DNA from: Bacteriovorax sp. BAL6_X
Lineage (GTDB): Bacteria; Bdellovibrionota; Bacteriovoracia; Bacteriovoracales; Bacteriovoracaceae
NCBI RefSeq assembly: GCF_000443995.1
Contig: NZ_AUMC01000008.1
Location: 186,001 to 250,000 of the forward strand
DNA length: 64,000 bases
Direction: 5' to 3'
Position numbers and translations under genes: made by a program. Below are positions 35,958-53,910 of the stretch, piece after piece (within the stretch, counting starts at the first letter, position 1; every line of letters starts with the position of its first letter). Under the pieces are notes generated by a model. The model was not told the DNA's origin. It saw only the letters and a list, made by a program, of their open reading frames with translations, and ran no database searches.

Positions 35958-38900
35958 TTAGTCATACTGATTTGGATCAAGTTCGATAACACAACGCAGA
36001 CCAATTCTACTGCTCGCCTCAGAATCTGGAAGAAACTCAAATGCATAGACACCGGCCCCAGAAAGACTTTCATAATCCCCACCACTAACCATATTTCCGT
36101 TTACTCCATCAGTGTTGTTAAAGATTCTAAAGATCTCATCATCATGAAGTTGAGAGTTAGTTATTCCAGCTGTTGATCCGATTCTTAGCGTATAATCATT
36201 AATCACACTTCCAGGCATAGCATCTTCTGTGGCCTTGGCCGCATTAGAAATTGGAATACCAAAAACATAGTTAAAGTATCTAGCACTATAATCTGATACA
36301 TTCTCAAATAAGTGACTATCAAGCTCAAGATCACAAATATTGTCCCCATCAGAGTCATTACAAGGCCCAATATAAGAATCCATTATGTAATCCCCTGTCC
36401 CACCATAGATATCGGCCTTAGTCGAAACGATTGAAGCAAATGAGTAGATATTAGAGTTGAAGCCATATACTGTATTTGAAATCTCAGCCACATTTCCTAC
36501 AGCATCTTGTACACCAAAAGCTGATATACAGTCTTGTGTAAATACAGAACCTGTATGAAGAGAGCGAATTCCTGAAGAGTTTGTTCCTGGGATAGTATGA
36601 ATATCTGAAGAACTTAAATTATCAATATCCATATATGATGATTCTAGACCACTTGCCCCTGATGCATTACATTTACTTGAAGAATTAAGTGCAAGTCCCC
36701 TTTCCACAACTTCAATATTTGCATCAGAAGTAGCTCTTACATCCCAAGCACTATAAGCGATCTGCTCATCACGATCTGGAAGTTTATAAGTAGTCGCAGC
36801 ACCATATCCGACAATAGTCGGAGATCCAGTAAGTGTAGTACATGCGTTAGCTGCATTTGCATTTGTAATATTTGTTAAAGGTGGTAAGAAAGATTGAAAT
36901 GCTACTGCAGAATCTAAAGTATGAGTTGCAAAGTTTTGCCATACCCCATTTTTTACATAGCAAGTACCTGTTGATCTTTCATAGAAAATAGACCCGTCTG
37001 GCCCATCATATGCACCTAAGTTCTGAGCAATACATTGGCCATCTGTCGTATCACAACTTGTCTTAGAGTACGGGCATCCCATTTCAAAACGAGGAACAAG
37101 TAAGTCCTTTCCAAAGTCATAAATTGAACCAATTGTACCAAGAGCTGAAGCAGTGTCACCAAAGCCTTTATATTCACAAACATAATTACTATCAATAAAT
37201 GAATCTGAATGCATCATCTCACAAGCTTTCTTATTAACCATCCAACGATGGACGAATGCAAAGTTTTCTTGTGGAGCAACTACTGTTAATTTTGCAACAT
37301 TATTATTTGTTGTAATCTCAAGTGATTCATTGTCACCAAGCTGATTCGTAAAATTTAAAACAGGTCTTACTTCATAGACATAAGTGTGATTTGGAACAGG
37401 TGCTAAACGTGAGTTCTCACCGTTATCAATATAAGTATTAGAAGAAGTAATTAGATCTCTATTTAAAGGATTACTATAGTTGAATGTATGTAGAGGCCCT
37501 GCTTTCTTACGATAAATATTATAACCTTGAATTGCACCAGACGTACCAACAGTGAAGTCTTCCCACTCAACACTTACACTTGAGGTCCCATGATATGGAA
37601 TCCAATTTGTCCCGTCAGAATAAAAACAATCTTCATCCGTAGTTGCACGGTAGCCTGTATTAAATAAGAATTTTCCGTCGTTATCGCTTGCAAGTAATGT
37701 CTCTGTTTGTGAGTTAAAGACAACGCTAACAGATGAAGCATCACTTGAATCATATGTAACATCTCCAATACAGCTTGCACTATTAAGATCATCACATGTC
37801 GTAGTTGTATCTTCTAGCAGGCCATTAGACGTATAATCGCGATTTACTTCTGAAATATTACAGGCAACAGATTTACTAATTAAAACCCAATCATTTGAAG
37901 TCGTTCCTGTTGAGTAGTAACACTGATTGGCCGCCGTACGATATATAGCACCAGCTGAGTCAGGTACGACATTACTAGTTGCGGGCGAAACCGTTCCGTA
38001 ACACTCTTTTCCACCATCGCACTTTGTTAGTGAATGAGAACATGTAAAGCTAGATTCAACTCGAATACCAAAGTGATCAACTTTAGTTCCTAGAGCTTTA
38101 ACATCGGCCCAACCGTGATGAGCAACCGTTTGAGGCTCAACTCTAACTTTAAACGAAACAGATGTTCTTGGTGAACCTGTACCATTATCGACAAGATCAA
38201 ATGAAATTGTCGTTTCCCCATATTGTGACGCCGTTGGGATCATTTTAATTCTTAATACTTCATTAATTGAAATTCCATTATCAATTACTCCACTGGCCAT
38301 AGCGCCTGTTACTACTGCAAGATCCCCTGCTTCACTATATTCACCATCAAGGTCAGTATCCTTTAAGAATTGAATATTCATTGGTTGTATAAGTACATTA
38401 TTAGTTGAAACAATATTTTCAATCGTTACCGTTTGAGAAGCTTCATTAATGCTACCACCTTCACTAATAATAACATTATCAATAATAATATCTTCTTTTT
38501 CACCTACAATAACATCACTCATAAAGCTCGCATTTTGAACCCCATTATTTGAAGCAACTGCCCAGTCATCTGTGTCAACTGATTCATAACAAAGCCCATT
38601 AGTACGATCAAAGTAAACAACAGGATTATCACTTACGTGAGAAGTAGGATTGAAGCTAGGTGCCCCATGACCAATACAATTATTTACACCACATTCAGTA
38701 CGACCTGCGCGGCGATCATAAACAGAGTAATTACAAATTACAGGAGCATCAGAAGTTTCTTGAACAATAACATCAAGACTTTGTACAACTGACTCCGCAC
38801 TACTTGAATCCCTAACAACAAATTGGAAGTCATCAGGTGTTCCTATTGTATTAGCACTATTACCGTTTAATGTTTCATATAAACATGTGATAGAACCACC

Positions 38901-40577
38901 TGAAGAAATCGCACAATCTTTAATTGTTCCCTCAGTGCCAGCAAGAGAGCCTTGTCCTGCCATCGTGTTGATACGGTTTCCACTTCCATCAATAAAGTAA
39001 ACCGTAAGAGATGACATTGTATTATCGACATCAGAAACACTTCCAAGAGTAATTGTTTCACTTACACTATTCCAGTCTGAAGACTCATTCATAGTGTGAG
39101 TAAATGGGCCACCTGCCACAACAGGTGGATCATTCTTAGCGTTGATGACCACATTGATATAACCAGTTGTATGAAAGTCGGCCATACTCGTTAAAGGTAG
39201 CGGTGAATCTGAAATTTGATACTCAACAGTAAAGACACCATTTGCATCTCCATCAAAAAAGAGATTACAAAAAGTAGCATCATCCACACTATTAGCGTGG
39301 AATGTATCACCAGGAGCTCCTGTACAAGAGCCTTGAATATCTGGATAGCTTGTTAAGTTTTTAAATTTATAACGTAGATCAGAACTTGGAAATCCCATGT
39401 AAGAATCATCTGATGCTGTTGGAAAATAAAGCCCTACTGCAGTTTGGGCCCCAGGCGTCCCTGTACTATCTTCGTCTACAGTTACTGTAATAATATTTGC
39501 AGCAACTGGCTCATCATCAACTTCAGTCACACGAACTGAAGCAACTCCAGTATTTGAATACTGGCCATTTGCATAAATTTGGTACTCAACCATATCTTCT
39601 ATCGCCGCATTAAAGTAATCTGTACTAGTTGTAAACGCTAACGTACACTTACCTAGTGAGCAATTACATGAGATATCTGAGTTTTGTACACTTGCATGTA
39701 CCGAGCTAGCAACACAATAAGTTGCAAAGTCACCATCATAATCAAAGTAGCCAGAGACAGGGACTTCATTGACTTCACTATCGAATTCAAAAGTAATTAG
39801 AGAATCTTCACTTACAGTTGTGCTTCTTGTCGCCGCAACACTTGGAGCTTGATCAATATTTGTCACATCAACATATAATCTTGAAACAGCGCTATCACCA
39901 TCATCATCACTAATATAAAAATCAATATGTGAAGATCCATTAAAATGACGAGAAGGTTCAATATTCATCGAACAAGTACCGCTAATACATTCGCAAGTTG
40001 CACCTAACATTTTAATCCCAGGTGTCGGACTCTCCGTCGTATTCGGACCTGTAATCGTAGCAACGATGATTGGATTAATTGTTGCACTAGAGTTTATTGC
40101 ATTAATAATTTGCAACGAAGTTGAAAAGCCTGCATCAATTTGAACAGTAATTGTATTTGTTGTTATTGAGACTACTTCGGCCCCAGCAGAAACTGTTGGG
40201 TTATCTACTAACTCTAGATAAAGCTCTGAGAAGTTCATTGCATTTTGCCAAGTGTTTACCTTTTCAAACGTCATTGAGCCAATCGTTATTGTTTGGTTTA
40301 GACCTGTTGAGCTATCAACAATTGTGCATGAAGTAGGTATTCCTCCATTTTGATCTGTAAAAGAAATTGGAAAACTTGTCATGGCATCATCTTCAAGCAT
40401 AGAAACTGAAGTTGTTGTAATAACCGGTGCCTTTGGAGAAACATCAAGAATACAGCTTCTAGTGATTTCATCAAAGTAGTGCCCATCATCACAGCTTGCC
40501 TGCTTTAAAGAATTCATCTGCGGTGTACAGCCGATAAAAGCACTTAAAAATATTGAAATTAATAGTATACGATTCAT
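35958..40577 (-). CDS. Giant surface lipoprotein: Ig/cadherin-like repeats, Cys-rich modules, FGE/lectin-fold C-terminus
   Basis: 1539 residues from the ATG at 40577 (GGAAAGGT upstream; the frame to 40598 lacks one). Lipoprotein signal with lipobox SAFIGC. From about residue 45 to 640 there are Ig/cadherin-like repeats, several opening with a V(S/D)EDS motif. Four cysteine-rich modules lie at about 615, 845, 905 and 1165, sharing the pattern C...C...(I/V)Y/F...CY...W. A fibronectin-III-like segment is near 1000-1080. The last 310 residues resemble the formylglycine-generating-enzyme/C-type-lectin fold (KLPDRDEQIAYSAW, VGNVAEI, RIGLRCV) but look non-catalytic. Probably a surface adhesin. A FliA-like promoter precedes it. 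Confidence 0.75.
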   Translation of the reverse strand: MNRILLISIFLSAFIGCTPQMNSLKQASCDDGHYFDEITRSCILDVSPKAPVITTTSVSMLEDDAMTSFPISFTDQNGGIPTSCTIVDSSTGLNQTITIGSMTFEKVNTWQNAMNFSELYLELVDNPTVSAGAEVVSITTNTITVQIDAGFSTSLQIINAINSSATINPIIVATITGPNTTESPTPGIKMLGATCECISGTCSMNIEPSRHFNGSSHIDFYISDDDGDSAVSRLYVDVTNIDQAPSVAATRSTTVSEDSLITFEFDSEVNEVPVSGYFDYDGDFATYCVASSVHASVQNSDISCNCSLGKCTLAFTTSTDYFNAAIEDMVEYQIYANGQYSNTGVASVRVTEVDDEPVAANIITVTVDEDSTGTPGAQTAVGLYFPTASDDSYMGFPSSDLRYKFKNLTSYPDIQGSCTGAPGDTFHANSVDDATFCNLFFDGDANGVFTVEYQISDSPLPLTSMADFHTTGYINVVINAKNDPPVVAGGPFTHTMNESSDWNSVSETITLGSVSDVDNTMSSLTVYFIDGSGNRINTMAGQGSLAGTEGTIKDCAISSGGSITCLYETLNGNSANTIGTPDDFQFVVRDSSSAESVVQSLDVIVQETSDAPVICNYSVYDRRAGRTECGVNNCIGHGAPSFNPTSHVSDNPVVYFDRTNGLCYESVDTDDWAVASNNGVQNASFMSDVIVGEKEDIIIDNVIISEGGSINEASQTVTIENIVSTNNVLIQPMNIQFLKDTDLDGEYSEAGDLAVVTGAMASGVIDNGISINEVLRIKMIPTASQYGETTISFDLVDNGTGSPRTSVSFKVRVEPQTVAHHGWADVKALGTKVDHFGIRVESSFTCSHSLTKCDGGKECYGTVSPATSNVVPDSAGAIYRTAANQCYYSTGTTSNDWVLISKSVACNISEVNRDYTSNGLLEDTTTTCDDLNSASCIGDVTYDSSDASSVSVVFNSQTETLLASDNDGKFLFNTGYRATTDEDCFYSDGTNWIPYHGTSSVSVEWEDFTVGTSGAIQGYNIYRKKAGPLHTFNYSNPLNRDLITSSNTYIDNGENSRLAPVPNHTYVYEVRPVLNFTNQLGDNESLEITTNNNVAKLTVVAPQENFAFVHRWMVNKKACEMMHSDSFIDSNYVCEYKGFGDTASALGTIGSIYDFGKDLLVPRFEMGCPYSKTSCDTTDGQCIAQNLGAYDGPDGSIFYERSTGTCYVKNGVWQNFATHTLDSAVAFQSFLPPLTNITNANAANACTTLTGSPTIVGYGAATTYKLPDRDEQIAYSAWDVRATSDANIEVVERGLALNSSSKCNASGASGLESSYMDIDNLSSSDIHTIPGTNSSGIRSLHTGSVFTQDCISAFGVQDAVGNVAEISNTVYGFNSNIYSFASIVSTKADIYGGTGDYIMDSYIGPCNDSDGDNICDLELDSHLFENVSDYSARYFNYVFGIPISNAAKATEDAMPGSVINDYTLRIGSTAGITNSQLHDDEIFRIFNNTDGVNGNMVSGGDYESLSGAGVYAFEFLPDSEASSRIGLRCVIELDPNQYD

Positions 40578-40602
40578 TACCTTTCCCAAGTATCCCAATA
40601 AC

Positions 40603-40767: not shown

Positions 40768-43632
40768 CTACTGACAGAACTTAAAACTTTGATTTAGTGA
40801 GCAAAGAGCTTCTCTCATTTCTTCATTCTCTTCTTTAAGCTTACTATTCTCTTCTTTTAGAGAAGCTATCTCACGTGTATTTTGAGCTACCTGAGATTCA
40901 ACCCCCTCACTCATAAGTTTGAACATCGCCAAATTGCCATCGAGTTCTTTTACCGCTTCAATAAGTGGTGATACAAGTACAGCATAATCAACAGATAACC
41001 AACCATCAGCATTTTCAATAACGGCCGTTGGAAATTGTGCCTGCACATCTTGAGCAATCACACCAATCGAGTGCATCCCAGGAGATAGAGACTTCTCATT
41101 CCAGTTAAACTCAACACCTTTAAGGGCCTTTATTTTATCAAGGGCATGATCGATTTCTGTCACATTGTCTTTGAGTCTTTCATCTGAAGTACAATTCGTT
41201 GCACCAGCTCCACCTCCAAGAGTACAGTCTGTTGATCCTTGAACTCTTAGATTCCCTACGACATGAAGTTGCTCAGAAGGAGTTGTTGTACCGACACCTA
41301 CACGCCCAGCGGCAGTTACAGTCATGCGGTCTGTATTTGCGGTAGATATTGTCACAGGTAGGTTTGAGCCGACTGCTCCCGCCGTATTTAAATTCCCAAG
41401 CTTGATACCGGCCCCATTATCAACCAATACTTCAAAGTTATTTAACGTCCCACCTTTAAACACAACATTATCAATTCCACCTTGAGATATAATTTTCTGT
41501 GCAGAAGTCACTTGTCCAAAAAATGCAGAGCTTGTAGTTGCATCCCCTGCAATGTTATTAACAGAGATATTACCAAAATCAACATCACCTGTTACAGTAA
41601 TGTCACTATCAAAAGTAGCATTCCCCGTAACTTGTAGAGTTCCATCTACAACGGCCGCACCAGTTGTATTGAATGCGCCAGTATTTGTAAGTCCGCCTGT
41701 TGAAGTAATCCCATTGCCTTGAATTGTCCCAGTCGCCGTCAGATTTGTAGTTGAAAGGTTTCCTGAGTGTGAAAGAGTCCCTGAAACAATTGTATTACTA
41801 AATTGTGAAATGCCTGTAACGTTTAGGTTACCGGCCAATTGAGTACTACCTCCAACAACCATTTGATAACCAGAGGTATCAGAAACAGCAGTACTTCCTA
41901 CAAGTAGCCTTCCATTATTAGTAAGTCTCATATTTTCTTGCTGTGTATTCGTTGTATTTGCAGTCGTATAAAAGTTCAGCTCTGTTCCAAGATTTGTTGC
42001 ACTAAAATTTTCAGTCGCAGTCGAACGAATACTAGCAGTATTTACTATTCCACTACCAGTATCTCCACCAAAGTTTAAGAGACCTAGAATATCATTTGCA
42101 GTCGTCATTGAAGGTGCAGTAATAAGACCTTGTGAACTTGCGAGATTGATTGACGACTGATTGCCACCATATGAATAAAATTGTCCACTTGCATCTCCAG
42201 AATCACTACGTACATCAATTTGAGCAGTAGCATTGAATGTACCGAGATTAGATGTGTGTCCAAAAGATAAATTTCCATTTGCATCGTATAGAGCAAAGTC
42301 AGAAGATTCTGATTGGAAGGCGATATCACCAGGGCCGGAGCTACCAGCTGTAATTGTTGTTGTTCCACTATTTGTCATATTAACAGCATTAATATTGGTT
42401 ATCCCCGATCCATCTCCAACAAAGTTGGCCGCTGTTACAGTTGAGGAAATATTTAAATTACCATTGACTCCCGAATTTCCATAAACATAGAAAAGATAGA
42501 GAGGATCTGGAGTACCACCAATTGATGTGCGCCCTGCTGAATCAATGAAAAACTCTGCAGAATTCCAAAAGCTAGAAGTTAAGCTATCACCATCTCCATC
42601 AACATCGATAAAGAAGTAATTCATTCCACCAATATTTGTGTTACTACCATAAACACCCATCGTAGCGTTGTGTTCTTGTCTTAAACCAAAAGATAGTGCT
42701 CTTGCCCAACTAGAGCCAAGCCCTGTACCAACATTTCCACCCACGTGTAAAAGAATACTTTCTTCCGCAGTTGTAGGCCCTGCAATATTTCCACTCACAG
42801 TTAACTTAGATGGCCCTTCATATGGATCATCAGAGATTGTTACCTTTCCACCTGAACCACTACGTCTAATATGTGAACCACTTATATCCCAAGGTCCAGC
42901 GTAACTCCCGTTACTTAATTGAAGGTCCCACTTATTCGTTGATTCATTAAAACGAATAATATCACCCGCTGTGAAAGTTTCAATATTACCATCACCATTT
43001 AAATCACCAGCAACTGGAGCAGCATCGTTAACAACATAGAAGTCCCCATTATTGACTCCGGCAACTGAAGGAGCTGTGACTCCTCCTGTATCAAGAATGA
43101 GACGTCCTAAATAGTTAGACCCACCTAGATAGTCAACAGCAACCCATGAAGCTCCGTTATACTGCAAAACTTGGCCAGCACTTGATGCCCCCAGAGAGCT
43201 TAACTTTGAATTCGTTATTGCGCCGTCTTGAATTTTACTTGTTGAGATTGAACTATTTTGAACATCAAAACTAACAGAAGTTACAGTTTGTCCGAATGCA
43301 TCTGTTACAATAAGGTCATAGATAAAGCCACCAACGATTTTTAAACCATTAGGAACCCCTAACCTAACCATATTTGCTGACTTTGATAAGATATTTAAAT
43401 TGATAACCTGGGGCCCATTCTTTGTTTTGACTGCACTAATCGTTGATAGATTTGTCCCATTGAGAATCAATTGGTTTGAAGAAACTTCAATAAGTGTAAT
43501 CTGATGCCTCTTCGTAAGATCAGAAGTATCTGACGAGTTAGCATTATCACGGCCTGTATTACTAACAGGTTTACACGCGATAAAAAGTACAACTAAGAGA
43601 ATGTAAAAAGTATCTTTAAGTTTCATATCCAT
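40768..43632 (-). CDS. Tail-fibre-like lipoprotein with C-terminal intramolecular chaperone (peptidase S74) domain
   Basis: 954 residues. Lipoprotein signal with lipobox LFIAC. N-terminal IPT/TIG-like domain (about 45-125), then KIQDGAITNSKLSS and QVLQYNGASWV, sequences usual before fibre shafts. The centre is glycine-, serine- and threonine-rich low-complexity repeat (NLNVTGI..., GTLQVTGNATF...) as in trimeric fibres. The C-terminal 130 residues start with TSDERLKDNV and carry GVIAQDVQAQFP, the endosialidase-type S74 domain that trimerises the fibre and then cuts itself off, followed by a coiled coil. This architecture is normal for phage fibres but here is on a lipoprotein. Start: AGGGAT before ATG 43632; ATG 43626 is also possible. 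Confidence 0.8.
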   Translation of the reverse strand: MDMKLKDTFYILLVVLFIACKPVSNTGRDNANSSDTSDLTKRHQITLIEVSSNQLILNGTNLSTISAVKTKNGPQVINLNILSKSANMVRLGVPNGLKIVGGFIYDLIVTDAFGQTVTSVSFDVQNSSISTSKIQDGAITNSKLSSLGASSAGQVLQYNGASWVAVDYLGGSNYLGRLILDTGGVTAPSVAGVNNGDFYVVNDAAPVAGDLNGDGNIETFTAGDIIRFNESTNKWDLQLSNGSYAGPWDISGSHIRRSGSGGKVTISDDPYEGPSKLTVSGNIAGPTTAEESILLHVGGNVGTGLGSSWARALSFGLRQEHNATMGVYGSNTNIGGMNYFFIDVDGDGDSLTSSFWNSAEFFIDSAGRTSIGGTPDPLYLFYVYGNSGVNGNLNISSTVTAANFVGDGSGITNINAVNMTNSGTTTITAGSSGPGDIAFQSESSDFALYDANGNLSFGHTSNLGTFNATAQIDVRSDSGDASGQFYSYGGNQSSINLASSQGLITAPSMTTANDILGLLNFGGDTGSGIVNTASIRSTATENFSATNLGTELNFYTTANTTNTQQENMRLTNNGRLLVGSTAVSDTSGYQMVVGGSTQLAGNLNVTGISQFSNTIVSGTLSHSGNLSTTNLTATGTIQGNGITSTGGLTNTGAFNTTGAAVVDGTLQVTGNATFDSDITVTGDVDFGNISVNNIAGDATTSSAFFGQVTSAQKIISQGGIDNVVFKGGTLNNFEVLVDNGAGIKLGNLNTAGAVGSNLPVTISTANTDRMTVTAAGRVGVGTTTPSEQLHVVGNLRVQGSTDCTLGGGAGATNCTSDERLKDNVTEIDHALDKIKALKGVEFNWNEKSLSPGMHSIGVIAQDVQAQFPTAVIENADGWLSVDYAVLVSPLIEAVKELDGNLAMFKLMSEGVESQVAQNTREIASLKEENSKLKEENEEMREALCSLNQSFKFCQ

Positions 43633-43773: not shown

Positions 43774-44727
43774 ATGAATAGCTTTCGAAGATTTTTGCAA
43801 ACTCTACTAGTCACTATGGCATTTCTGACAGTGGCCGATCACGCCATTGCTGAAAAATACGATCTCAACACAAACTTAATTGTCATTCAAAATATTGCCA
43901 ATGACGGGATGTCTTTTGTTATTCGTAAAGGAAGAGTAGATAATATTGTTAAAGGCCAAGTGTCGCTATTCTCTTCGAAGGAAATCTCTTTTACAGCTCG
44001 TGCCATCTCTATAACAAAAGAGTACTCACAGTGGATTGTTACAGACAATAATATCAGAGTACCGTTTGAGAAAGGACAAATTGTTACTGTTAACTATTCT
44101 CCGGAAAGAGTTTGGTTAGAGATTCCAAAGATTCTTGGTGATGAGAATTACAGAAAAATGCTTGCAGAAGAAGAGATGTCTCTTAAAGAAAAGCAATTTC
44201 AGCGCTACGATAATCGATTTGAATTCTTCTATGGCAAAAATCAAGGGCTGAGCGAATCAACAAGTTCTAGTACTAATAATGATGGCACGAGAACTGGGGA
44301 TACATTCCAATTCAATTACGCTATTCCTATTAACCAAACATTCCAAACAACAATTGGCTTTCGCTATGACCTTGACCTACTCACTCTTCTCAACCCAAAT
44401 GTTGAACAAGAAACAAAGAGAATGTTGGGAACGGCGGCCCTAAAAATATCATTCGATAATAACTGGAGCTACCGTTTTAGCTACTTTGTTTCCCTTGGAG
44501 TCGGTTTTGGTCGTTCTGAAACGAGTATCCAAGATACCGTAAGAGTAGGAAGTGCAATGCTTCTTCCATCTGTAAGTTTAGGACTTGAATACAAAGTTTC
44601 AACCTCCCAGTCACTTATCTTTAAAGCTAATTTTGATGCTATCCAATCAGATGAAGAATTTGCTGATGGCTTTCAGCAATCTACTGATCAAACAATGTTT
44701 GGGCTATCTGTTGGTTACGCCTTTTAA
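43774..44727 (+). CDS. Outer-membrane beta-barrel protein, uncharacterised
   Basis: 317 residues. Signal peptide (1-26) ending near HAIAEKYD. The N-terminal 100 residues form a soluble beta-rich domain (VIRKGRVDNIVKGQVSLFSSKEISF), and the rest is a barrel (FQTTIGFRYDLDLL, YRFSYFVSLGVGFG, GLSVGYAF) with the C-terminal phenylalanine typical of Bam substrates. It diverges from the fibre lipoprotein gene with 141 bases between, and overlaps by four bases the convergent 50-residue secreted peptide gene. Confidence 0.65.
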   Translation: MNSFRRFLQTLLVTMAFLTVADHAIAEKYDLNTNLIVIQNIANDGMSFVIRKGRVDNIVKGQVSLFSSKEISFTARAISITKEYSQWIVTDNNIRVPFEKGQIVTVNYSPERVWLEIPKILGDENYRKMLAEEEMSLKEKQFQRYDNRFEFFYGKNQGLSESTSSSTNNDGTRTGDTFQFNYAIPINQTFQTTIGFRYDLDLLTLLNPNVEQETKRMLGTAALKISFDNNWSYRFSYFVSLGVGFGRSETSIQDTVRVGSAMLLPSVSLGLEYKVSTSQSLIFKANFDAIQSDEEFADGFQQSTDQTMFGLSVGYAF

Positions 44728-48480: not shown

Positions 48481-51400
48481 ATGAAAATCAAAAATGAAAA
48501 CAAATTTGGAATGCTTAGAGGCCTTACACATGCATTCGCATTGGCCGCGATTCTTTCAAGTTGTGCAAAGACTCTTCCGGACAAAGAGCCTGATTTTGCT
48601 CAAGAAAGCTATCGTACAAAGAATTCTGTAACTTCAGCTAAGCTTGTAGTTGAAGCAATTGCTGTTGCAACTCAAGAAGAACTTTCTAAAAATAGAATTT
48701 CGACAGACTTAATTGACACAAGTGTTGGTAGTGAAGCAAAGACTCTTTACTCAACTCAAATCGTTAATTCTAATGATAAAACTTATAATGTTCTTGTAAA
48801 AGATCTTCTAGTTTTTGCAGAGAAAGAAGGTCAGAAATTTGAAATCACATTTGATCTAACGACAAACTACCTAGTAGCATACATAGCTCCAGCAGACACT
48901 AGTGCAAAAGCTTTTAGTGCTTCAAATAAGATTATTCGCGATGTTCTTCCAGTTAAAGCTTCTAAGCTTGACCGCATTCCACTATTTCAATATGGCGTTG
49001 ACTTCTACCAAAGAGAAAATGTTAAAAACGACCTTGATGAAAAAACAAGACATATCAGATATATTGAAAAAGATCGTTCTGAATCAACTCACTACAAAGT
49101 TGATTACCTAATCGAAAACAGAACTTACACAGGTGTTTTCGGAATGGATCAAAAAGAGATCGCGACTATCTACCGTCGTGATAAAGTTGAAAGTAACCTA
49201 TTCACAGTAGGCCAACTTGAAGATCGTATCCTTAATAATGAAAATGCTTTCACTACTTCAAAGCATGATGGTCACGTATTTGATAACAAAGACCTAATAA
49301 AGGTTATTCTTGATGACAATGAAAGTAAGGCATACTTTGCACGTGTTATTAAGAAAGAAAATCTAACTGACAATGAAGAACAACTAGTTCGTGCAGAAAG
49401 ATTCAACCTACTATTTTCAAGATGTGACGCGGATACTGCACAAAGAGCAAAGATCGCTCTTGATAACTGTTTCCTACGCTCAGAGATCTCTGAAAAAATT
49501 AAGTACGTAAAATTCAAGTACGATATCGATGATAATGATGAAGTTTTAGCTGAAACAAAAATCTCTTCAAGCACTGTTGCTGAAGATGCAAAATTCATTC
49601 AACTAGAAAAAGATTCTCAACCTGAAGAGATTTACCCAACAGAAATTAGAAATGAGCTATCAACTGCTTGGTTAAAGCTTGAAAAATTTAAGAATCAAGA
49701 ATTTACTTTTAGAAGAGTTTTAGAAGACTCTCCAAATATTTTCAATTATAGCTTTGCAGGTTCTAAAGCAACTTTCCACGTGGAAATCGTTAAGTTCCAC
49801 TTTGAGCCAGGACGTGTTCTTGTTAAAAGGTCAAAACCGCTTCTTGATAAAACAGGATCAACAAATCTTGATACAGAGCCTTTACTAGCATTTGAAGCTG
49901 AATACTTCCGTGAAAGTAAGAATGACAAAGGTGGTATCGTCTACGTTCCAGCAAGTCACAATGATGAAAGAGCTATTGCTGTTGTAAACCTTGGTAACGA
50001 CCAAATTGGTGATGTTCTTACATCACTAGACCCTTACCTAATGAGTGTTTGTGGAGGCGGAAAGGCCCACGGACTGACAGAGGTAAGAGATATCGTACAG
50101 GTTGTTGATGGAAAAGATGATTTCCTTAACTTCTCTACTCAATCAACTTATAAAAAAGGTAACCTATTTAATTGTGCTGACTTTGGTGGAGATTACTGGG
50201 GACAACAGAATGAAACGATGACTTTCAAAGAAAGAACAACTTTCATGAAGTACAATCAAGAGTTCGAAGAGCCAGAGCAAAATCTTTCTTACGAAGTACA
50301 AAAGAAGTTTAACTTTGGTCTATTCACAGGTTCTAAGCTAGTTCCAAAAGGATACACTGAGCAAACTCGTGACTTTGATACAACTGTAGATCTACCAATG
50401 GTATTTGATATCAGAAATGGTAAGAATATCGAGTACGTTCTAACAGGGATTCCATCAAATAAATACGACAAAGATGGAAAACTAGTTAGAAAGTTAACTC
50501 AAACAGAACTTGATCTAAGAAATAAAATTATCGTTTCTTCTCAAAAAGTTATTGATGATATCAACCTAGGTTTCAAGCGTGCATTCAAAGGTACTCAATA
50601 CGAAGGGCGTGGTGATGTTATCACTCTTAAGATTGAAAAAGATGATTCAATTCCAGCTGGAACAAAGAACCTTTCTCTAACTCACAATCTTGATGGTGAG
50701 TCACGTTCAGTAAATATCGAAGTTGTGGAAAAAACTCACTTAGGAGATCTACAACGTAACCATATCTACTGGGTAGAAAAAGCTACTTCAAGTTCAATTA
50801 TTGGTCTTGGAGGTCCATCGTTTAACCCAAGAAACGGTGTTGTTGAATCAGCTTCTGTTTACCTATACGGTGGTAACATGAAGTCTTCAATTAACTGGAT
50901 GGTTGATAAAGCGATCGCAGAGAAGAACTTTGTTAAGAATATTACTCCAACTAAAGAGCTTCAAAAACTTGCAGATGAGCTTAACAAGAAAGCAATTGAA
51001 GATGCTCTAGCAGAGCACAAGGCAAAGACTCAAGCAGCAGGACAAGCGACTCAAGTTGCTAACACAGATGAAGTAGAAGTTGAAATTGAAGGTGAAACAG
51101 TAACTCAAAGCTCGAAGAAAGCTGAGATGAAATCTCACCGTCACGGTGTTGCTCACACTAACTTAAAGAGCAATCTACTTAATACAATTAAGCGTCCAAA
51201 TATGGCCTCACAGATGGGGAAAATCAAAGATGCTCACCGTCTAATGAAGAATGATTTTAGAGCTAGCTCATTTGATAAAGATGAAGTTCTTTCTAACTTC
51301 ACAAGAGCTAACCAAAAAGAGGCAAAAGCAGTACATGCTGCTTGGCAAGCAATTGCTAATAAGGACGACGTTGCACTACAAGCAGCAATTCACGGTGACA

Positions 51401-53910
51401 ACTCAATTGAGGCCCTTCAAGCGAAGATCAAGCATTCAATGGAGTACGATACTAAGGGTAATAAAAACCCTATTTGTAACCACGAAACAGCTGAGTTTGC
51501 ACTTAGTAACCTTGCTAAGAACTACGATGTTCTTGAAATGGCAAAAACTGACGAAGGAAAGAATGACATTCTAATTGATATCTGGATGCCAACTCTTGCA
51601 CACGAGATCGGACACAACCTTGGTCTACGTCACAACTTCGTTGGTTCATTTGATAAGAAGAACTGGGTATTCCCAGGAGAGAAAGAAGCAAAGAGAACTT
51701 CATCTTCAGTTATGGACTACACAATTGATGACCACGCTACTTACGATGGTCTAGCTCCATACGATGTATACGCACTACGTGCAGCTTATACAGGAATGGT
51801 AGAACTTGAAGGATATACTAACTCGAAAAAGACATCAATTGAGATCAATGGTGTTGACGTTAAGGTATCTTCTGTTGAATCTGAATTTGAACCAGGTCTA
51901 TACTACCACCTAGTAAGAATTAAAGATGTCATTGATGCACTTGTTGGTGAAAATGGTAACCCTGCAAATATCTCTAAGCATAGACTTATGGCAGAAGCAG
52001 GCCTTAAGAGAATCAGATTCTGTTCAGATGAGGACGCAGGAAACTCTCCTCAGTGTAACAGACACGACTTTGGTTCATCTTTTGAAGAAATCGTTGATTA
52101 CCAAATTGCAGACTACCGTCAGATGTACGAGTATATCTACTTCCCAGGAAAGCGTAAGCAGTTCTATGGTGGAGCAGCATTTGGTTGGCTAATGGATAAA
52201 TTCTATAAGTTAAGAATGATGAACGAAGAAGTATTCTATCACCTAATTTATACTCCTGAGTTGTACTCTCAAGCAGATCAAGCAACTCATGATGCAACAA
52301 CTAACGACCTAGTAAATGGTGTAATCAAGTCACTATTCTTCCTACAGTCAGTAGTTGCGACTCCAGATATCACTCCAGGAGCTGGGCTTGATACTGAAGC
52401 ACAAAGAAATAAGAGATTTGTTTCGACTCTAGTTCCAACTCAAACTGAGGTTACAGCTGATGATGGAACAGTTCTACAAGTAGCGACTCAAAAACCAATG
52501 GTTGTAGAAACAAAGTGGAATGAAGCAATCTCACTTGATAGTGATTCATATAGAGCGAAAAACCGTGGTGTTGAATATGATAAAGCAGCAGCTCTAATTG
52601 CACTTACAGAGTCTGAGTCGTACTCATACAAGTACCGTTCAAACTCTCTAAGAATTCCATACCAGTTACTAGAGCAGTACCTGTTTGGAATTGATATTAA
52701 GGATTCAATTGTACAATCAACAATTGGAGAAGTTCTTTCTGGTCAAGTTACTCCACTAGTATATGACCCAGCAATAGGACGTAATATCCCACTAACTAAT
52801 GGAGCCTTCAGCGTTGAAGTTGGTGAAGTTGAAACTAACTATGCTGCTATCGGTGGTCTAGTTTACGGTAATATTGATACATTTGAACAAACAGCTAACC
52901 CTGCACGTGCATTTTGGGTAAATCATATTTCTCAAAGAGATCTACTTACTGAGACTTTCGAGCACGAAGGGCAAACTTACCAAATCCCAGAGGATTATGT
53001 AGCTGAGAAAACTGATATCAGAAAAGCATATGTACCTTATGCACAAGACTCATATGTAGCTGGTAACGTTATCCAGAAAGCAAGTATGATGCAGTTAATT
53101 TCTCACGATGAGCGTTGGTCAACATTCTTTGAAGAATGGGAAAAGGCGCAAATTGAAGGGCTTCAACTTGCACAAACTCCAGCAGCACAAGATGCAACTG
53201 AAGATACAATGAAAGCTCAAAAGACCGAGCTTGAAATGGCAGCTGCTCTTGGAAATGCAGCAACAATTAAATCAGAGATGCAGAAATACTTCGCTCAAAT
53301 TAATGCTCTTCTTGCTTCACAAGATCAAAAAGAGATGATTGCAGGATTCCTTGCTCAAAGAGCACTTATTAAGCAAGCTGGTTCTTACTTTGTATCAGCT
53401 CAGTTTACAGTAATGATGAATGATATTGGCCTTGAAGGTGTAACACTAGACTACATCAACCAAGTTCTAAGTCAGGCAATCGTACCAATCGCTTTTGAAG
53501 CAGAAGCATGTCGTCTTGCAGACCAGTACTGTTCAACGGTTGATATGATTCAAATGGCGAAAACAGGAAATAAGGATAGATACTTAGATAATAAGATCAC
53601 TAACCTTCTGAATAACTTCTCAATGCCTTCAGTTAATGACCAAGGTCAAGTTGAGTTATTCGCACCAGTTATTACTAAGATTATCCAAGGTCTTAATAAT
53701 AACGAACAAATCAAGCTAGGAGATGTTTTCTTAAGAGATATTCAAGAAAACAGCTTCGCTCAGATTCAACAAATGGATCAGCTTGTTGGTGAAGCTATGA
53801 CGAAAATGAAAGTTACTAAAGACGTTGATAGCTTCTATGGAGATATGAAAAGAAACGTAAAACTTCTTGGATTATACTTCAGAATGATTAACCCGATGGA
53901 AGGAAAATAA
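48481..53910 (+). CDS. Giant zinc metalloprotease lipoprotein (Met-zincin, DUF4953/DUF5117-like)
   Basis: 1809 residues. Lipoprotein-type N-terminus with lipobox ILSSC at about residue 29. The zinc site is HEIGHNLGLRHNFVGS at about 1041, followed by SSVMDYTIDDH, the methionine turn; the HNF ending is typical of the Met-zincin family with DUF4953. Upstream are about 1000 residues of beta-rich sequence; downstream about 700, largely helical, with several cysteine pairs. The codons avoid GGCC, suggesting high expression. It is likely to be an exposed protease acting on host, prey or envelope proteins; substrate unknown. Its 5430 bases have no in-frame break. A terminator follows. Confidence 0.85.
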   Translation: MKIKNENKFGMLRGLTHAFALAAILSSCAKTLPDKEPDFAQESYRTKNSVTSAKLVVEAIAVATQEELSKNRISTDLIDTSVGSEAKTLYSTQIVNSNDKTYNVLVKDLLVFAEKEGQKFEITFDLTTNYLVAYIAPADTSAKAFSASNKIIRDVLPVKASKLDRIPLFQYGVDFYQRENVKNDLDEKTRHIRYIEKDRSESTHYKVDYLIENRTYTGVFGMDQKEIATIYRRDKVESNLFTVGQLEDRILNNENAFTTSKHDGHVFDNKDLIKVILDDNESKAYFARVIKKENLTDNEEQLVRAERFNLLFSRCDADTAQRAKIALDNCFLRSEISEKIKYVKFKYDIDDNDEVLAETKISSSTVAEDAKFIQLEKDSQPEEIYPTEIRNELSTAWLKLEKFKNQEFTFRRVLEDSPNIFNYSFAGSKATFHVEIVKFHFEPGRVLVKRSKPLLDKTGSTNLDTEPLLAFEAEYFRESKNDKGGIVYVPASHNDERAIAVVNLGNDQIGDVLTSLDPYLMSVCGGGKAHGLTEVRDIVQVVDGKDDFLNFSTQSTYKKGNLFNCADFGGDYWGQQNETMTFKERTTFMKYNQEFEEPEQNLSYEVQKKFNFGLFTGSKLVPKGYTEQTRDFDTTVDLPMVFDIRNGKNIEYVLTGIPSNKYDKDGKLVRKLTQTELDLRNKIIVSSQKVIDDINLGFKRAFKGTQYEGRGDVITLKIEKDDSIPAGTKNLSLTHNLDGESRSVNIEVVEKTHLGDLQRNHIYWVEKATSSSIIGLGGPSFNPRNGVVESASVYLYGGNMKSSINWMVDKAIAEKNFVKNITPTKELQKLADELNKKAIEDALAEHKAKTQAAGQATQVANTDEVEVEIEGETVTQSSKKAEMKSHRHGVAHTNLKSNLLNTIKRPNMASQMGKIKDAHRLMKNDFRASSFDKDEVLSNFTRANQKEAKAVHAAWQAIANKDDVALQAAIHGDNSIEALQAKIKHSMEYDTKGNKNPICNHETAEFALSNLAKNYDVLEMAKTDEGKNDILIDIWMPTLAHEIGHNLGLRHNFVGSFDKKNWVFPGEKEAKRTSSSVMDYTIDDHATYDGLAPYDVYALRAAYTGMVELEGYTNSKKTSIEINGVDVKVSSVESEFEPGLYYHLVRIKDVIDALVGENGNPANISKHRLMAEAGLKRIRFCSDEDAGNSPQCNRHDFGSSFEEIVDYQIADYRQMYEYIYFPGKRKQFYGGAAFGWLMDKFYKLRMMNEEVFYHLIYTPELYSQADQATHDATTNDLVNGVIKSLFFLQSVVATPDITPGAGLDTEAQRNKRFVSTLVPTQTEVTADDGTVLQVATQKPMVVETKWNEAISLDSDSYRAKNRGVEYDKAAALIALTESESYSYKYRSNSLRIPYQLLEQYLFGIDIKDSIVQSTIGEVLSGQVTPLVYDPAIGRNIPLTNGAFSVEVGEVETNYAAIGGLVYGNIDTFEQTANPARAFWVNHISQRDLLTETFEHEGQTYQIPEDYVAEKTDIRKAYVPYAQDSYVAGNVIQKASMMQLISHDERWSTFFEEWEKAQIEGLQLAQTPAAQDATEDTMKAQKTELEMAAALGNAATIKSEMQKYFAQINALLASQDQKEMIAGFLAQRALIKQAGSYFVSAQFTVMMNDIGLEGVTLDYINQVLSQAIVPIAFEAEACRLADQYCSTVDMIQMAKTGNKDRYLDNKITNLLNNFSMPSVNDQGQVELFAPVITKIIQGLNNNEQIKLGDVFLRDIQENSFAQIQQMDQLVGEAMTKMKVTKDVDSFYGDMKRNVKLLGLYFRMINPMEGK

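Follow-up and report, generated by a model that had tools for sequence, protein, structure and literature searches.

An S74 fiber protein with a predicted lipid anchor in Bacteriovorax and the likely exchange of its tip

The 954-amino acid protein examined here, encoded in a 64,000-nucleotide stretch of the genome of Bacteriovorax sp. BAL6_X (the window), is probably a lipid-anchored, self-processing trimeric fiber that acts like the mosaic adhesive trimer (MAT) adhesins of Bdellovibrio bacteriovorus, a reading to which we give a probability of roughly 0.7. An adhesive, self-cleaved surface fiber is the best-supported interpretation of the evidence, with trimerization, cleavage, display and adhesion inferred from the MATs and from the lipobox adhesin Bd0875. 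A self-cleaving adhesive fiber on a cell is not new, having already been published in the form of the MATs. What separates the window protein's family from the MATs of strain HD100 is, on sequence evidence, a predicted lipid anchor followed by an IPT-like base.

The window organism belongs to the phylum of Bdellovibrio, as does genome G146, but to a different family. In the part of Caulton et al. 2024 drawn on here (PMC10769870), the MAT superfamily of B. bacteriovorus HD100 comprises 21 fiber proteins, 13 of them with an S74 domain, and all 21 carry a conserved β-rich domain of about 130 amino acids after the signal peptide. MAT tips gave trimeric structures, TNF-like and C-type-lectin tips occur among them, Bd2439 binds glycans, and tagged MATs were displayed on the cell surface. 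The S74 catalytic motif is SDxxxK; Bd3182 self-cleaves at S782, and cleavage is blocked by S782A. The surface element to which the MAT base would attach was left to further study in that part of the paper. An earlier note on this DNA took S74 domains to belong normally to phage fibers, a view that overlooks the published cellular S74 MATs (PMC10769870). The window genome (3.23 Mb, 10 contigs) has six S74 matches, five of them besides the 954-amino acid protein.

Results

Architecture of the fiber protein

The open reading frame begins with ATG and its coordinates are exact by ORF reading. The architecture proposed in the earlier note holds for the 954-residue protein, which consists of a lipobox, a small β-rich N-terminal domain of about 110 residues, a fiber body and a C-terminal S74 domain. 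The features of the locus are as follows.

40768-43632, minus strand: coding sequence of the putatively lipidated S74 fiber protein, 954 aa
43573-43632, minus strand: lipoprotein signal peptide and lipobox, residues 1-20 (FIAC, C20), by reading and by the family Cys column
43237-43575, minus strand: IPT-like base domain, residues 20-132, from family alignments A1 and A2, PDB matches and hhalign
41188-43236, minus strand: fiber body, residues 133-815, G/S/T/N-rich, from MAT structures, phage tail-fiber PHROGs and composition
41266-41301, minus strand: capping-loop-like motif, residues 778-789, VGVGTTTPSEQL, from likeness to the published MAT/MyRF motif
40822-41307, minus strand: apparently exchanged tip module, residues 776-937, from 75% identity to L039, a fiber encoded elsewhere in the genome of a sister species
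40771-41187, minus strand: S74 chaperone-protease and C-terminal helix, residues 816-954, from profile, motif and AlphaFold2 fold
41170-41187, minus strand: catalytic motif SDERLK, S816 to K821, an SDxxxK motif with the cut predicted before S816
43774-44727, plus strand: divergent small outer-membrane β-barrel-like protein, OMP_b-brl below cut-off, kept in three genomes
35958-40598, minus strand: downstream 1546-aa lipoprotein-like protein (FIGC), with same-locus copies in three other genomes

The lipid base

The lipoprotein signal reads MDMKLKDTFYILLVVLFIAC-K, with the lipobox FIAC and Cys20. The claim of a lipoprotein signal is strengthened by the position of Cys20 in an alignment column where 53 of 56 lipid-base rows have Cys. 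One gene is counted twice among these rows (the open end of L055 is L097), and S74 is overrepresented, some of the rows having been collected through their S74 domain. Among the three rows lacking the aligned Cys, L046 carries a separate lipobox further toward the N-terminus, and the frames of L131 and L132 run open at the fetched 5' edge. A single regular expression for lipoprotein signals matched 45 of the 53 lipid-base members, the remaining eight showing a lipobox by eye; it matched none of 14 HD100 MATs, none of five MAT-base proteins from the window's family and none of 36 S74 ORFs from phage contigs whose N-terminus was complete. By analogy, we infer lipidation and an outer-membrane location for the window protein.

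The resemblance of the base to IPT domains is modest. The two best PDB matches of a profile built from 51 base rows are IPT/TIG proteins of Bacteroides (5e7g, E 0.0032; 6e57, E 0.011), and so point toward the IPT-like domain of the earlier note; against it, Pfam TIG matched weakly and in only three of 15 lipid-base members, with a best E of 0.017. The 51 rows form alignment A2, from which L046, the L055 duplicate, L112, L131, L132 and the second L113 piece were omitted. Single-sequence AlphaFold2 modeling of the base (residues 20-186) gave a pLDDT of 41.3, and P0001 had no relative in genome_contigs or viral_contigs.

The lipid base was found in 58 of the 368 genomes of the phylum, 49 of the 58 being in the window's family. 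A sample of 58 genomes from that family contained 22 with the lipid base. No genome of f6, the family of G146, is among the 58 genomes with the lipid base. A search of the literature for S74 with a lipobox, or for a peptidase S74 lipoprotein adhesin, found no such protein, although the supplementary tables of PMC10769870, which deal with other strains, may mention one. The parts consulted of two comparative-genomics papers on these predators (PMC11656739 and PMC12827227) do not mention S74 fibers.

The S74 tip and its predicted cleavage

That the protein ends in an S74 domain is confirmed by a PF13884 match at residues 816-871 (E 1.7e-15; 57.5 bits against a Pfam cut-off of 22), by the intact SDxxxK motif, present as SDERLK at residues 816-821, and by a chaperone fold in the model. 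The AlphaFold2 model of residues 765-954, made with 38 sequences (the window protein and 37 viral relatives), has a mean pLDDT of 83.9 and shows a helix after the S74 domain. Its top 11 Foldseek matches in the PDB are intramolecular chaperones (7dc3, 3gw6 and 3gud), and VIA-align gave Z scores of 8.7 for 7dc3, 7.5 for 3gw6, 5.9 for 3gud and 5.0 for the T5 fiber 4uw8.

Autocleavage before S816, releasing a 15.5-kDa piece, is predicted by analogy. A cut at S816 would divide the chain of 96.6 kDa (uncut, from Cys20) into 81.1 kDa (from Cys20) and 15.5 kDa (139 aa). A Ser-Lys motif alone does not prove cleavage, and since the support for cleavage here consists of motif and analogy, the S74 domain might instead be a non-cleaving stabilizer, with the full-length protein as the mature form. 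We consider this very improbable: the S, D and K residues are intact in all 61 S74 proteins read in the phylum, among them the 25 that have the lipid base, and Bd3182 does cleave (PMC10769870).

The fiber body and the question of phage origin

The body (residues 133-815) is glycine/threonine-rich and more generally rich in G, S, T and N. Three crystal structures of MATs match it, mostly near the C-terminal end of the body: 8ojn (Bd3182, E 1.9e-5), 8ond (Bd2133, E 0.0046) and 8ol4 (Bd2439, E 0.0067). Tail-fiber and baseplate families of PHROGs match residues 387-899, with E values down to 2.9e-33, and 367 phage records match the window protein, as might be expected if it were not a cell adhesin but a phage tail fiber or tailocin part, domesticated or captured recently. 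Such an origin is nevertheless exceedingly unlikely. No phage record covers 80% of the protein, and among the matches listed (15 of 367) all are confined to residues 664-919. Many cellular genomes of the phylum (58 of 368) conserve the base, and none of the 36 phage-contig S74 ORFs shows a lipobox. As the earlier note had stated, no phage genes are nearby: none of 12 neighbors matches structural, packaging or integration PHROGs at E 0.001, the PHROGs matches among them being to a ParA-like protein, an RNase H, a carboxypeptidase and an acetyltransferase.

Neighboring genes and the side of the membrane

Three other genomes of the genus (L165, L167 and L168) show the same arrangement of barrel gene, fiber gene, large lipoprotein gene and ParA-like gene. 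The barrel-like protein (43774-44727) matches Pfam OMP_b-brl at E 0.046, below the cut-off, and its relatives adjoin the fiber gene at the same three loci. It was rejected as a dedicated partner of the protein class, being absent from three other lipid-base S74 stretches (L164, L166 and L170). The 1546-aa protein has no Pfam match, and its C-terminus has no PDB sequence match; by eye, its terminal GLRCVIEL resembles the GFRCVYRP with which FGE-like tips finish. Elsewhere in the window (48481-53910), an 1809-aa protein has a lipoprotein-like start and, by eye, a zinc-protease-like motif, HEIGHNLGLRH.

A lipobox by itself does not fix the side of the membrane that a protein faces. The self-processed trimer could be anchored in the outer membrane and point inward, as an envelope scaffold or spacer. 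Surface exposure needs a flipping route, and no dedicated translocation gene was recognized among the neighbors; the adjacent barrel-like gene is the only translocation candidate and, as noted, is not found near every such fiber gene. We nonetheless judge an inward orientation unlikely. MATs with a like body and S74 tip, and Bd0875 as well, are surface displayed in the phylum (parts consulted of PMC10769870 and PMC11003981), and the strong diversity and exchange of tips fit outward binding better than a scaffold.

Exchange of the tip at a syntenic locus

In residues 51-624 the window fiber is approximately 30% identical to its positional orthologue L040, and in the tip 34%. Compared with L039, which lies at another locus in the sister genome that also carries L040, it shares 31% over the base and 75% over residues 776-937 (72% at the DNA level). 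Base and tip trees were built for 24 lipid-base S74 proteins, and in AU tests the grouping of the base with L039 was rejected (p 0.016), as was the grouping of the tip with L040, L043 and L045 (p 0.008). The AU groups were chosen after BLAST had shown the pattern and hence were not blind; the independent support comes from synteny. In the free base tree, the nearest relative of the window protein is L124 (90/72) and not the positional orthologues, although holding the window base with the latter costs just 0.6 log units and is not rejected (p 0.44).

A foreign tip has likely been swapped into this syntenic locus, as judged from these comparisons. The fiber gene would have retained its place and its base, and the last 40 or so fiber residues and the chaperone would have been exchanged as one cassette, the exchanged piece spanning the end of the mature fiber and nearly the whole chaperone. 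Joint exchange of fiber end and chaperone would be understandable if each chaperone has to match the fiber end that it folds. Hypermutation of the tip by a diversity-generating retroelement was considered and rejected, since the window genome has no reverse transcriptase (PF00078). For work on how tips and chaperones are exchanged, the locus supplies a definite breakpoint some 40 residues ahead of the predicted cleavage site; such exchange bears on how these bacteria alter what they bind.

Varied ends on the lipid base and varied bases under the S74 tip

One genome (G018) encodes 15 lipid-base genes, seven of which end in S74 and eight in other tips. Among nine non-S74 ends scanned with Pfam, FGE-sulfatase matched one over and one below the cut-off, BclA_C matched one weakly, and six matched nothing. 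Two tip types resemble published MAT tips (FGE/lectin-like and C1q/BclA-like), and similar tips seem to occur on both bases. The mosaic character of the MATs, a constant base with varied tips, is therefore found in the window's family too, in the ends of the G018 proteins and in the conflict between tip and base.

There were 54 S74 matches in 38 genomes. Of these, 39 were read either completely or partially; the rest were 14 matches from G030 and one from G028. The 39 comprise 16 with the lipid base, 11 with a prepilin start, five with the MAT base, two short proteins and five unassigned (three of them cut at the fetched edge). In a tree of 61 S74 domains the base classes are interleaved, though not at random: 26 changes are needed where the minimum possible is five, and none of 200 shuffles was as low. 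Across starred branches of this tree the lipid class requires at least seven changes. The locus-level test described above is preferred to the 61-domain tree because the bootstrap of the latter is not settled and several of its branches are long.

The 11 S74 proteins that start with a type IV prepilin-like segment are encoded at L036 (1070-2662, G000 contig 3), L041, L049, L051, L065 (two) and L053 (five tandem genes), and SDxxxK is intact in every one. When ten of them were scanned, S74 was over the cut-off in all ten, and N_methyl was over it in three, below it in three and without a match in four. In the window genome the prepilin-S74 gene is surrounded by sugar-modifying genes, and a scan of ten neighbors found no pilus gene. 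These proteins possibly place phage-type tips on pilus-like filaments, to judge from their sequences. A literature search for pilin with S74 found no such protein in the titles and abstract openings among the matches listed, and these prepilins with S74 tips may be the newer observation. Two genomes of the family also encode short proteins (L048, 145 aa; L063, 148 aa) that are mostly S74, with SDxxxK intact and no evident signal peptide. On G000 contig 5 (5933 bases), an S74 protein finishes at locus L034 and a MAT-type base begins 3' of it, which may mark a tandem fiber array that broke the assembly.

Relation to the MAT base

We took G146 as HD100: it matches the Bd2439 fragment of 8ol4 at 100% over 111 residues, it has 13 S74 proteins, and in one protein of 922 aa the S74 motif lies at residue 782, in agreement with the published S782. 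Fourteen HD100 MATs were read, namely the 13 S74 proteins and Bd2439. The MAT-base alignment A3 (17 rows) contains 12 of them and five proteins of the window's family; the other two, L151 and L160, were missed by the start pattern, and by eye both have the NYQGR base. The A2 base profile had no match at E 10 in the 14 HD100 MATs, and hhalign of A2 (51 rows) against A3 (17 rows) gave a probability of 0.7%. Weak matches of the A1 profile to HD100 MATs fall at model positions 115-174, which is the fiber segment past the base, apart from one poor exception at 89-110. Three MAT bases are also encoded in the window's own genome. In place of the conserved MAT domain of about 130 amino acids, the window protein has a different base.

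Discussion

We propose a pathway for the protein. A precursor with a Sec/lipoprotein signal (96.6 kDa from Cys20) would receive its lipid at Cys20 and be transported to the outer membrane. The S74 domains would fold three chains in register and, after a cut before S816, the 15.5-kDa chaperone would be released, leaving an 81-kDa fiber tethered by its lipid. The exposed β-helical end of the fiber could then bind glycans or other surface structures, plausibly those of prey bacteria or of a surface.

A broader idea, to which we lend slightly less than even odds, is that the S74 tip is a free cassette found on at least three unrelated anchors (IPT-like lipoprotein, MAT base and type IV prepilins). 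It would move between loci and re-arm adhesins together with their chaperone, the anchor setting the place and distance of display.

Several known systems share parts of this design. The S74 fold and catalytic motif are common to the window protein, to phage S74 fibers and spikes (endosialidase, 3gw6; T5 L-shaped fiber, 4uw8) and to MyRF (7dc3), but the window protein is predicted to be a secreted, lipid-tethered cellular protein and belongs to no virion. The IPT/TIG domains of Bacteroides SGBP-B (5e7g and 6e57) are the best PDB matches of the base profile. SGBP-B proteins are lipidated surface proteins with the binding end outward. The window protein differs from them in having a single IPT-like domain that is followed by a fiber and S74. 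In the part consulted of PMC11003981, B. bacteriovorus Bd0875 is a lipobox MIDAS adhesin on the predator surface; surface adhesion by the window fiber is argued from this case, since it places a lipobox adhesin at the cell surface within the phylum. The likeness is that of a lipobox adhesin, whereas Bd0875 has a MIDAS/VWA fold and neither fiber nor S74. The S74 subgroup of the MATs, exemplified by Bd3182, shares with the window protein its phylum, a cellular fiber with a homologous β-helical body, a capping-loop-like motif, a C-terminal SDxxxK S74 domain and the combination of one base with varied tips. The MATs have a signal peptide without a lipobox and a 'TYQGR' domain, in contrast to the lipobox and IPT-like domain of the window family, which seems to solve, by means of a lipid, the surface attachment left open for the MAT base.
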